Position numbers and translations under genes: made by a program. The notes under the pieces were generated by a model that did no database searches, was not told the origin of the DNA, and worked only from the letters and a program-made list of their open reading frames with translations. From an uncultured Eubacteriales bacterium (GTDB lineage: Bacteria > Bacillota_I > Bacilli_A > RF39 > UBA660), in contig OMST01000056.1 in assembly GCA_900313815.1 (NCBI GenBank), positions 1 through 48,536 of the forward strand: a stretch of 48,536 nt of DNA, in the 5' to 3' direction. The stretch's first letter is position 1, and each line of letters opens with the position of its first letter. Of this stretch, positions 1-16,803 are shown piece by piece.

Positions 1-630
1 ATTATTTCTATTAAAATCTTTTTTCATTATCAGCATACTTACTTCATCTTCAGTTTGCTTTACTGTTAATCTTTCTTCTATAATTTTATTAAGTAAACTT
101 TTTTGTAAGTCTTCATTTTCTAAAGATAATAATGTTCTTGCATGCCTCTCAGATATTTTATTGTATAATAAAGCATCCCTAACTTCTTTAGGTAAATTTA
201 ATAATCTTAATTTATTTGCTATTGAAGATTGACTAACACTTAATTTGTTTGCAATATCCTCTTGTGTAAAACCTTTATCTATTAATTTTTTATATGATTG
301 AGCTTCTTCTATTACAGTTAAATTTTTTCTTTGTAAATTTTCTAATAAAGCTATTTCAGCACTTGTATTATCATCTGTATTATTTATTATAGCAGGTATT
401 TTCTTAAGTCCAGCTAAACAAGCAGCTTTATATCTTCTTTCTCCTGCTATTATTTCATATTTGTCGGATATTTTTCTTAAAACAATTGGTTGAATTACAC
501 CATATTTAATAATAGAATCAGCTAAATTATTTAATTCTTTCTCATCAAAAGCCAACCTAGGTTGAAATCTATTAGGTAAAATATCTTCAACTGGAATATA
601 ATAAATTTTCTCACTATTGTTTTCTTCCAT
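1..630 (-). CDS. noc: Nucleoid occlusion protein Noc (ParB family), C-terminus cut by window edge
   Basis: Reading leftward from an ATG at 628-630, 210 codons stay open to the window edge. The protein has the ParB N-terminal domain with the GERRYKAA box (about residues 64-71), the ALLENLQRKNLTVIEEA segment and a helix-turn-helix reading SQSSIANKLRLLNLP followed by SERHARTLL. These last two blocks are typical of Noc rather than Spo0J/ParB. Noc is a CTP-dependent clamp that binds Noc-binding sites and blocks division over the nucleoid. A perfect Noc-binding palindrome lies at 16014-16027, supporting the call. Position next to rsmG is that of noc in B. subtilis; soj/spo0J are expected just left of the window. 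The N-terminus starts directly with MEENNSEKIYYIPVEDIL and lacks the amphipathic membrane helix of Bacillus Noc; no in-frame upstream Met exists. A weak AGAGG ribosome site lies upstream. Confidence 0.88.
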   Translation of the reverse strand, partial: MEENNSEKIYYIPVEDILPNRFQPRLAFDEKELNNLADSIIKYGVIQPIVLRKISDKYEIIAGERRYKAACLAGLKKIPAIINNTDDNTSAEIALLENLQRKNLTVIEEAQSYKKLIDKGFTQEDIANKLSVSQSSIANKLRLLNLPKEVRDALLYNKISERHARTLLSLENEDLQKSLLNKIIEERLTVKQTEDEVSMLIMKKDFNRNN

Positions 631-9899: not shown

Positions 9900-10358
9900 A
9901 TGGATTATGAAATTAATTATGATACTCAGGCTATAATACCTATTTCAGAAACAAGTTGTAAAGTATTAGAAAATAATGAAAAATATATAATTAATTCATC
10001 AGTATTAAGTTTAATGGAACATAGTTGTGAATATTTTGGTAGTTCATTTACTGGAAGAAAAGAAGGAACAAAAAAATTACTTGGTATAACACATAAATCA
10101 CCAATAATAGTTGAAGAAAGTAGAAAAATAATATTCTTTCCAACAACTTCTCCAGATAATATTGAATGTGTATGGATTAATCTTGAAAAAATAGATAAAT
10201 ATTATAGAGTAAGTTCAAAAAAATCTGAGATATTATTTAAAAATGGAAATAGAATAACTATTAATATTTCTTATGGTTCATTATCTAATCAAATATTAAG
10301 ATCAACAAGATTAAAATATATATTAGAAGAAAGAACTGAAAAAAAAGGTGTTTTTTAA
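9900..10358 (+). CDS. comK: ComK-family competence transcription factor
   Basis: 152 residues. Clear ComK signature: HSCEYFGSSFTGRKEGT (about 40-56), ITHKSPIIVE, an IIFFPTTSP block, CVWINLEKI and SYGSLSNQILRSTRLKY near the end. ComK activates DNA-uptake and recombination genes by binding AAAA-N5-TTTT boxes in Bacillus. It lacks the C-terminal tail of about 40 residues that in B. subtilis is the MecA/ClpC degradation target, so its turnover may differ. GGGGG ribosome site before ATG 9900. It replaces the S4-domain gene (yaaA/rlbA) usually found between dnaN and recF; I see no K-box at its own promoter. Confidence 0.88.
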   Translation: MDYEINYDTQAIIPISETSCKVLENNEKYIINSSVLSLMEHSCEYFGSSFTGRKEGTKKLLGITHKSPIIVEESRKIIFFPTTSPDNIECVWINLEKIDKYYRVSSKKSEILFKNGNRITINISYGSLSNQILRSTRLKYILEERTEKKGVF

Positions 10359-13477: not shown

Positions 13478-16000
13478 ATGAATGAAGATATAAATAATGA
13501 TGATTTAGTTATCGATTCTAATGAAGAATTTGAAAAGGTTAATGTTGATAATAATTTTAACGGGTATTTTCATGAAAGAGATAGATTAGATCACAATAAT
13601 ATAGTTGAAGAAGTAAAAACCTCATTTATGGAATATTCAATGAGTGTTATAATGTCTCGTGCACTTCCTGATTTAAGAGATGGTCTAAAGCCTGTTCATA
13701 GACGTATTTTATGGTCAATGTATGAATCAGGATATACACCAGATAAACCACATAGAAAAAGTGCTAAAACTGTTGGTGAAGTTATGGGAAATTATCATCC
13801 ACACGGAGACTCTTCTATATATGAAGCTATGGTTCGTTTAGCACAAGATTTCAATGAGAGATATGTGCTTATTGATGGTCACGGAAATTTTGGTAATATT
13901 GAAGGTGATGGAGCTGCCGCAATGCGTTATACTGAATCTCGATTATCAAAAATATCATTAGAATTATTAAGAGATATTAATAAAGATACAGTAGATATGG
14001 ATGATAACTTCGATGTTACTAGAAAAGAGCCTAAAGTTTTACCATCAAGATTTCCTAATGTATTAGTTAATGGATCTATGGGAATTGCAGTTGGTATGGC
14101 AACAAATATTCCTCCTCATAATTTGGGTGAAGTAATTGATGGATGTGTTGCTTATATAGATAATCCTGATATTGATGTATTAGGATTAATGGAATATATT
14201 AAAGGCCCAGATTTTCCAACAGGTGGTATAATTCTTGGAAGTTCGGGTATAAAAAAAGCATATGAAACAGGTAGAGGTTCTATAACAATTAGAGGAAAAG
14301 CCGAAATTGAAGAAGTTGATGGTCATAATAACATAGTATTTACTGAGGTTCCTTACGGTGTAAATACAATGGAATTAAAAAATAAAGTTGCAGAATTAGT
14401 TCATACAAAAGTAATTGATGGAATAGCTGATTATCATACTGATTTAAAAGATGGAGTAAAAATAACTATAACTTTAAAAAAGGATGCCAATGCTCAAGTA
14501 GTTTTAAATAATCTATATAAACACACAGCTTTTCAAGTTAATTATGGAATTATATTTTTGATGTTAGATGGATTAACTCCAAGGACTTTAGGACTTAAGG
14601 ATATTATTTCAAAATATATAGATCATCAAAAAGAAGTTATAATTAGAAGAACCAAATTTGATTTAATAAAAGATGAAAAAAGAGTACATATATTAGAAGG
14701 ATATAAAATTGCTTTAGATAATATAGATGAAGTAGTTAAAATAATAAGAAATGCTAAAACAGATGAGGAAGCTAAAAATAAATTAATTGAAAAATTTGGA
14801 CTTGATATGATTCAAGCTGAAGCTATTTTAGAATTAAAATTAAGAAGATTAACTGGATTAGAAAGAGACAAAATAGAGGCTGAATTAGCTGCTTTATTAG
14901 CAGAAATTGAAGAATTAAAATCTATATTAGCCAGCGAAGAAAAAGTATTACAAATAATAAAAAAAGAAATGCTTGAAATTAAAGATAAATATGGTGATGA
15001 AAGAAAAACAAATATTGATAATACAGCGGTTGAATACATTGAAGATGAATCTTTAATACCACAAGAAGAGGTAATTGTTACAATAACAAATAAAAATTAC
15101 ATAAAGAGAATAACAAAAGATACTTATAAGGTACAACATAGAGGTGGAGTTGGTATTAAAGGAATGCAAACTACTGAAGAAGATGTAGTCGAGCAATTGA
15201 TATCATTAAATACTCATGACAATTTATTATTCTTTAGTAATAAAGGAAAAGTATATAGACTCAAAGGATATAAAATACCAGAATATTCAAGAACAGCTAA
15301 AGGACTACCAATCGTAAATTTATTATCTCTTGAAAAAGACGAAAAAATCAATACAATGATTAAAATAAGTGAAAATGATACGTACAAATGTTTGATTTTT
15401 GCAACTAAAAAAGGCATCGTAAAAAGAACATTAATTAGTGAATTTGATAATATAAGACAGAGTGGAAAAATAGCAATTAGCTTAAAAGAAAATGATGAAT
15501 TAATATCTGTTAAAAAGACAACCGGAGAAGATCAAGTTCTTATGTGTTCATCTAATGGTAGAATGGCTCGTTTTCCTGAAAACGAAATTAGAATCATGGG
15601 AAGAACTGCTTCTGGTGTTAGGGGAATGAATCTCGTTAATGATGAATGTGTTGGTATGGAAATATCTGAAGTTGGTAAACTATTACTTGTAGTTACTGAA
15701 AAAGGATATGGCAAAAAAACTGCTATTGAAGAATATAGAGAAACTAAAAGAGGCAGTAAAGGAGTTAAAACATTAAATATTTCTGATAAAAATGGAAAAA
15801 TAGTTAGTTTCAAATCTACTGACAATGATAAAGATTTAATGATTATAACTACTGAAGGAATTATTATTAGATTGGATATTAATTCAATTTCTCAAATGGG
15901 ACGTGTTACAAAAGGTGTTAGACTTATTAATTTAAAAGATAATAATAAGGTGGCTTCCATATCAATATTAGATAAAGAAACAAATGAAGAAGAAAATTAA
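13478..16000 (+). CDS. gyrA: DNA gyrase subunit A
   Basis: 840 residues. Breakage-reunion domain with catalytic Tyr151 ([10 protein letters not shown]), quinolone-determining region [14 protein letters not shown] (108-120, Ser112 and Glu116 as in quinolone-sensitive Gram-positives), coiled coil about 430-500, and a C-terminal beta-pinwheel with the gyrase-specific QRGGxGxKG box, here HRGGVGIKG. This box marks gyrase rather than topoisomerase IV. An acidic N-terminal extension of about 40 residues precedes the conserved core. Ends in a palindromic terminator that leads straight into the Noc/parS region. Confidence 0.98.
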
Positions 16001-16013
16001 TTTTCTTCTTTTT
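15986..16013 (+). terminator. Terminator at the end of gyrA
   Basis: Perfect inverted repeat AAGAAGAAAATT/AATTTTCTTCTT (15987-16010) followed by T residues; it includes the gyrA stop codon. Confidence 0.82.
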
Positions 16014-16027
16014 ATTTCCCGGGAAAT
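16014..16027. promoter_or_regulatory. Noc-binding site (NBS)
   Basis: ATTTCCCGGGAAAT, a perfect 14-bp palindrome identical to the B. subtilis NBS consensus, extended symmetrically to 18 bp (16012-16029). It is the only CCCGGG-centred site I found in the window. Noc is encoded at 1-630. Confidence 0.85.
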
Positions 16028-16163
16028 AATATTTGTATCAATTTTGTTTCAATAAATATTATATTTTAAAAGGTATTAAAATTATAGTGTTAAAAAATTG
16101 TATCAATCAATATCTATCAATTAAATAAATTTATTTAAATTAATAATCAAATATTATTTTCAA

Positions 16164-16179
16164 TGTTTCACGTGGAACA
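16164..16179. promoter_or_regulatory. parS site 1
   Basis: TGTTTCACGTGGAACA: one change from the consensus TGTTTCACGTGAAACA. The flanks CAA and TTG extend the inverted repeat. Confidence 0.88.
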
Positions 16180-16226
16180 TTGAAAATTAATTAATAATAT
16201 TATTTATCAATTTTGTAACTAGTTAA

Positions 16227-16242
16227 TGTTCCACGTGGAACA
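16227..16242. promoter_or_regulatory. parS site 2
   Basis: TGTTCCACGTGGAACA, a perfect palindrome; the flanks TTAA on both sides extend symmetry to 24 bp. Starts the first tandem repeat unit. Confidence 0.88.
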
Positions 16243-16437
16243 TTAATTAAGATATCAATTATAATTATAAAAAAAATAATATAATATAATATTGTTTATT
16301 AATATTCGGTAGCTGAAAGTATAAAACGTAGTTGTAATATTTCAATGTTCATGCAAATATTAAAATACAGATAAAAATTATTAATACTAATAATTAAAAT
16401 AACATTAATTAGATTATATTATTTAAATATATAATTA

Positions 16438-16453
16438 TGTTCCACGTGGAACA
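16438..16453. promoter_or_regulatory. parS site 3
   Basis: TGTTCCACGTGGAACA, identical to site 2 and 211 bp downstream of it. Starts the second tandem unit. Confidence 0.88.
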
Positions 16454-16637
16454 TTAACTAAGATATCAATTATAATTTTAATATAATATTATTTGCTAAT
16501 ATTTAGTAGATGAAAGTATAAAATGTATTTGTAATATTTCAATGTTCATGCAAATATTAAAATACAGATAAAAAATATTAATACTAATAATTAAAATAAT
16601 ATTAATTAGATCATATTATTGTTTGAATATATAATTA

Positions 16638-16653
16638 TGTTCCACGTGAAACA
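16638..16653. promoter_or_regulatory. parS site 4
   Basis: TGTTCCACGTGAAACA, 200 bp after site 3 and ten bases before the SRP RNA promoter. Confidence 0.88.
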
Positions 16654-16662
16654 TTAAATTAA

Positions 16663-16691
16663 TTGATTATTAATATACCATATGATATAAT
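16663..16691 (+). promoter_or_regulatory. SRP RNA promoter
   Basis: TTGATT (16663-16668), 17-bp spacer, TATAAT (16686-16691) preceded by TGA. Transcription should begin near 16698. Confidence 0.82.
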
Positions 16692-16697
16692 TGAAAT

Positions 16698-16775
16698 GTG
16701 CAATGGTGATTTTGTGAACCAAGTCAGAATCGGAAGATAGCAGCTTTAAACAAAATTACTATGTGCACATTTATT
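16698..16775 (+). ncRNA. ffs: Signal recognition particle RNA, small bacterial type
   Basis: The conserved domain IV core GTGAACCAAGTCAGAATCGG followed by AAGATAGCAGC (16714-16744) is the Ffh-binding hairpin, with the GGAA tetraloop. Flanks pair: GTGCA...GGTGATTTTGT on the left with ACAAAATTACT..GTGCAC on the right, giving a single hairpin of about 78 nt without the Alu domain of Bacillus 6S-type scRNA. A T-rich tail follows. It lies by tadA and dnaX, as scr does in B. subtilis. Confidence 0.92.
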
Positions 16776-16803
16776 TTATAATAATATACGAATAGGTGTT
16801 TGT

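Follow-up and report, generated by a model that had tools for sequence, protein, structure and literature searches.

Clusters of parS sites on bacterial chromosomes are already known, and an earlier sequence-only reading of the locus described here was therefore mistaken in taking known parS to be scattered single sites without exception. Tandem centromeres are known as well, since that of the F plasmid, sopC, consists of twelve 43-bp tandem repeats (PMC6238139). Given these two precedents, the repeat that we analyze below is in itself ordinary in kind. Why the number of parS varies and why the sites cluster are open questions in the field (PMC7333895). For the related protein Noc, the choice between parS and the Noc-binding site (NBS) is decided by Q173, K179, and R201 for NBS versus R173 and G201 for parS, with Q173, R201, and one K being sufficient for NBS (PMC7383237), and an N-terminal amphipathic helix is described as conserved among Noc homologues (PMC4331003). 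A literature search of partial coverage returned no description of parS and NBS interleaved in one interval, nor anything relevant on parS distribution in Tenericutes, on NBS with gyrA, or on parS/Noc in RF39.

The window, by which we mean the whole 48,536-nucleotide stretch of DNA that was analyzed, is one contig of a draft metagenome bin (1.03 Mb, estimated to be 67.5% complete). Its left part carries rnpA, yidC, jag, mnmE, mnmG, rsmG, and a ParB-family gene, while the order from ~7.0 kb rightwards is dnaA, dnaN, a ComK-like gene, recF, gyrB, and gyrA. Downstream of gyrA is a 688-bp interval, followed by the SRP RNA gene, a tadA-like deaminase gene, and dnaX. The GC skew of the window changes sign at ~7 kb, which places the gyrA-SRP RNA interval ~9 kb away from the origin, as judged from both dnaA and the skew turn. 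Two features elsewhere in the window may be recorded in passing, namely that the ComK-family gene (9900-10358; Pfam PF06338, 1.4e-44) has dnaN and recF as its neighbors in a small gut genome, and that a tandem repeat of 24 bp occupies the contig end (48456-48536) inside a reading frame that continues beyond it. The interval, its edges, and the relevant protein gene comprise the following features:

13478..16000, + strand: gyrA, left edge of the interval (NCBIfam TIGR01063, above cut-off)
16013..16028, no strand: NBS, TATTTCCCGGGAAATA, a 16/16 palindrome 12 bp downstream of the stop codon of gyrA
16164..16179, no strand: parS site 1, TGTTTCACGTGGAACA, with a palindromic match running 8 bp further on each side
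16227..16242, no strand: parS site 2, TGTTCCACGTGGAACA, the left-hand border of the unit that is duplicated
16438..16453, no strand: parS site 3, left flank like site 4 and right flank like site 2, apparent exchange junction
16638..16653, no strand: parS site 4, TGTTCCACGTGAAACA, the right-hand border of the duplication, a short way before the SRP RNA gene
16689..16784, + strand: bacterial small SRP RNA gene, right edge of the interval (Rfam RF00169, E 2.3e-11)
1..630, - strand: Noc-like ParB paralogue, first 210 codons, where the contig ends (best PDB match Noc 7nfu, 1.9e-58)

The four parS-like 16-mers begin at 16164, 16227, 16438, and 16638, spaced 63, 211, and 200 bp from site to site, whereas only 0.21 parS would be expected by chance in the window with three mismatches allowed. 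No further parS was found in the rest of the draft genome (bin ~68% complete), and every site detected falls within one 0.5-kb stretch of this single intergenic interval. The palindrome of site 1 extends over 16156-16187, with 8 perfectly paired bases per side, compared to 1 base each at sites 3 and 4. The genome encodes two full-strength ParB_N proteins. One of them, G000:C42, is encoded directly after a Soj/ParA gene and has Spo0J as its closest solved structure; this ParB (L035 ORFs) aligns as R-M-R-G, which is the parS type (R173, G201). With palindromes above chance, a position near oriC, and a parS-type ParB plus Soj encoded in the genome, the cluster fits a chromosomal ParABS centromere to which ParB is predicted to bind, and the proposal of a ParB-type centromere region built from iterated parS-plus-spacer units is supported to this extent.

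The earlier inventory of the interval had overlooked its perfect NBS (16013-16028), a feature that, like parS, is conserved. The NBS 14-mer is present as a single copy in the draft genome with up to one mismatch allowed, and 0.009 copies of the 12-bp NBS core are expected per genome. A candidate reader for this site is the Noc-like paralogue at 1..630, which is predicted to recognize NBS. Its specificity residues align as Q-K-N-R, while those of the scored relatives align as Q-K-N/S-R, and with the register placed by eye on the aligned sequences these correspond to the NBS-type Q/K/K/R except at one permissive position. Compared to the solved Noc chains, the protein of the window is short of ~19-21 N-terminal residues and has no N-terminal amphipathic membrane helix. 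The same appears to be the rule among its relatives, as an in-frame stop no more than ~35 residues before the NRFQPR motif leaves no room for a helix in 17 of 19 (the two exceptions, G020 and G023, have longer open frames upstream of the motif). The Noc-like proteins of the family (the window protein and L225-L243) also carry a long low-complexity C-terminal linker of ~190-550 residues after the DNA-binding region. NCBIfam TIGR04285 (nucleoid_noc) scores of 273 for the partial window protein and of 273, 265, and 305 bits for others are all below the cut-off of 315. Because of these scores, the lack of room for a helix, and the long linker, the window protein would not qualify as Noc in the strict sense.

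Sites 2, 3, and 4 delimit a genuine repeat, as the sequence-only reading had claimed: the sites are spaced 211 and 200 bp apart and the DNA between them is a duplicate, such that the unit at 16225-16435 aligns to the unit at 16436-16635. At 15% G+C, the unit is AT-rich rather than the A/T-only spacer that had been described. The parts of the repeat discussed from here on are the following:

16243..16437, no strand: spacer copy A, 92% identical to copy B outside indels, probable passenger DNA
16454..16637, no strand: spacer copy B
16314..16370, no strand: copy A of the previously proposed spacer core, not specially conserved
16511..16567, no strand: copy B of the proposed core

Apart from two indels, one of 14 bp in the left part and one of 3 bp close to the right end, the spacers between the sites show 92% identity, with 14 aligned substitutions in addition to these indels. 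The flanks of site 3 point to how the second copy arose. Its right 30-nt flank is 90% identical to that of site 2 and 47% identical to that of site 4, whereas its left 30-nt flank is 73% identical to that of site 4 (with a 3-nt indel nearby) and 40% identical to that of site 2; random 30-mers of the interval average 37% identity, with a 99th percentile of 60%. Thus, site 3 is a hybrid, being site-4-like on its left and site-2-like on its right at levels above random. This pattern is characteristic of unequal exchange through parS, a recombination step that we infer from the anatomy of the repeat. The ancestor would have had site 2, one spacer, and site 4, and a second spacer would have been inserted, together with an extra parS whose halves stem from different parents, when the near-identical flanking parS copies underwent unequal exchange or replication slippage. 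By its anatomy, the repeat is a recent lineage-specific tandem duplication, which was one of the options originally raised and is what the data show. An assembly artefact of the metagenome bin could be suspected, since parts of such clusters are often found at contig ends in other bins, but we regard this as highly improbable, given that 14 aligned substitutions and two spacer indels between the copies are not what a simple assembly duplication would yield and that repeats of this kind are present in many independent assemblies. It is also conceivable, though unlikely, that the array is old and has been kept alike by concerted evolution through gene conversion instead of stemming from one recent duplication. 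The copies are indeed 92% alike even though the spacers of relatives are unalignable, and the larger arrays of other genera contain nested repeats; yet here there are two copies only and site 3 is cleanly hybrid, for which one event is enough.

A recent duplication accounts for the repeat of this window, and the same interval in related genomes indicates what is kept over longer times. Within the genus, all 14 genomes with an assembled gyrA-SRP RNA interval carry parS plus 1-7 NBS cores there, with the 13 same-genus relatives having 2-5 exact or near-exact parS-type sites and each of them also having the NBS core in the same interval. All 35 NBS cores found in the genus lie inside the interval, and a scatter of NBS over the origin-proximal chromosome was not found in the genus, while some NBS cores of other genera of the family are located outside of the interval. 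In two genomes from such other genera (G018:C37 and G023:C6), an NBS core is located in the noc locus itself, which suggests possible autoregulation. Four genomes of the genus have neither parS nor NBS, and we rejected these as counter-examples because their assemblies lack a true gyrA and include only paralogues of ~30% identity. It should be noted that the genome whose Noc sequence is closest to that of the window (G012) has no assembled gyrA region, and the closest comparison is thus outside of the compared set.

In the wider clade, parS was found in 28 of 41 bounded intervals, with two or more sites in 24 and four or more in 14, compared to 0 of 22 outgroup or more distant loci; family-wide, an exact parS is present in 153 of 193 genomes and the NBS core in 158 of 193. 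The dense arrays between gyrA and SRP RNA/tadA reach considerable sizes, the maximum being 18 parS in a 2.4-kb interval (L131), followed by 13 parS mostly at a 43-bp period in an array that ends at the contig edge (L135), 12 parS in 1.8 kb (L128), and 9 parS (L174). When each interval was tested within itself, many were found to have spacer repeats of their own, including L120, L124, L128, L129, L131, L135, L153, L156, L159, L051, L063, and L065, and these duplications are unrelated to that of the window. Therefore, duplication recurs at this locus and the window is one instance of it. A further interval after gyrA (L134) has large nested direct repeats at offsets of ~440-600 bp and one recognized parS. 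As far as can be read from these genomes, the conserved feature is a fast-changing parS cluster beside gyrA, often mixed with sites for the Noc-like protein, and we propose that selection may act on whether parS and NBS are present and in what number, not on the spacer. Across the clade, the parS count of one orthologous interval runs from none to 18, a natural series in which the mechanism of gain is visible.

The spacer had previously been credited with an exceptionally conserved core that forms a second, structured element of the centromere. Two copies of this core do exist, although the second is located at 16511-16567 rather than 16509-16566, and its loop, its arms, and the longer stem of unit 2 are all present as described. 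Conservation of the core is not exceptional, however, as it has 2 differences in 57 positions versus 12 in 120 for the remaining spacer (Fisher p=0.23) within a unit that is a 92% duplicate throughout. With just two copies of the unit, selection on the core within this one species is still conceivable. The resemblance of AATGTTC in the loop to a parS half carries little weight, because chance alone should place ~0.5 half-site 7-mers in the spacers. For the core to be a second functional element, such as a hairpin or a factor site that loads or stops ParB and was duplicated along with parS, one could cite the loop and arms kept in both copies, the low count of differences, and the lengthened stem. 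Nevertheless, this now seems very unlikely. The divergence of the core is not significantly below that of its flanks, the two substitutions that lengthen the unit 2 stem are both on one arm and no compensatory changes occur between the two copies, and this sequence commonly forms short A/T inverted repeats, with 6 seen versus a shuffle mean of 2.4 (at least 6 in 14 of 200 shuffles). A 26-nt core pattern was absent from all 17 other genus genomes with up to three mismatches allowed. Likewise, a comparison of spacer B, with its sites masked, to 12 genus intervals gave no match exceeding those of shuffles (z -0.9 to 2.1), even though the SRP RNA part of those 12 intervals does align across most of the genus.

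A small RNA made from each unit had been raised as a further option, to which identical minus-strand promoter-like matches, one per unit (16345-16318 and 16542-16515), and, in unit 2, a somewhat stable fold of the minus strand (z -3.05, versus -1.04 for unit 1) could lend support. We consider it scarcely credible, as shuffles contain more promoter-like matches than the actual sequence (14 vs 8), the sole terminator-like match is a parS palindrome, an Rfam search of the spacers returned no match (the SRP RNA being the only hit), the folding of the + strand is ordinary (z -0.4 and -1.9), and relatives show no conservation. Neither a second conserved structured element nor a small RNA is thus borne out. 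The sequence-only reading had held that relatives with a single parS and no trace of the core, or core drift equal to that of the flanking DNA, would indicate a neutral duplication; the relatives have no trace of the core and its drift is indistinguishable from that of the flanks, but they keep several parS instead of one. Most likely, the spacer and its core are passenger DNA, and we infer that they are selectively neutral.

Taking as read from the sequence the sites, the duplication and its borders, the absence of the core from relatives, and the recurrence both of independent duplications and of parS and NBS, we consider it probable that the interval is a composite loading zone for ParB and Noc-like CTP clamps, in which the repeat arose by unequal exchange and the spacer is a passenger. 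ParB-CTP clamps, together with Soj/ParA, would load at the four parS sites and Noc-like clamps at the NBS, and both would spread along the same origin-proximal DNA. There they would act with Soj in segregating the origin and possibly in the loading of SMC, while the role of the Noc-like protein may be to control replication or segregation instead of tethering DNA to the membrane; loading, spreading, and these roles are extrapolated from the protein families (PMC8429893, PMC7333895). The cluster itself would turn over via unequal exchange. A broader and much more tentative proposal, which we would sooner doubt than assert, is that ParB and helix-less Noc-like clamps of this family, whose members are gut Bacilli with small genomes, load from interleaved parS and NBS in one short gyrA-adjacent interval. 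This would constitute a composite centromere whose array size changes quickly through site exchange and whose Noc paralogue acts in segregation or replication control rather than in a membrane-based block of division.

Compared to the chromosomal ParABS clusters of Pseudomonas aeruginosa, Bacillus subtilis, and Streptomyces, the locus is alike in having 16-bp parS near oriC, ParB and Soj/ParA in the same genome, and several sites per chromosome. It differs in that the sites of the window are all in one interval and iterated with a spacer, in that up to 18 sites occur per 2.4-kb interval in the clade, and in that NBS are interleaved in the genus. The F plasmid sopC shares the arrangement of binding palindromes in tandem, and the 43-bp period of most of the 13 parS in the relative L135 is the same as that of sopC, which we regard as analogy, not descent. 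Unlike sopC, the interval is located beside gyrA/dnaX, its parS are of the B. subtilis type, and the spacing in the window is irregular (63, 211, 200), with 43-bp iterons found only in some relatives such as L135. With Noc and NBS of B. subtilis and Staphylococcus aureus (PMC4331003, PMC5540599, PMC8429893), the locus has in common the NBS palindrome, the Noc-like DNA-binding residues, and the ParB-type fold. In contrast to those systems, NBS here is not scattered, there being one in the draft genome beside parS, and nearly all of the Noc-like proteins lack room for the amphipathic helix and have a long C-terminal linker. If true, the confinement of all NBS in one genus to the parS locus, along with an apparently helix-less Noc-like protein, would challenge the view of Noc as only a scattered, membrane-tethered division inhibitor.
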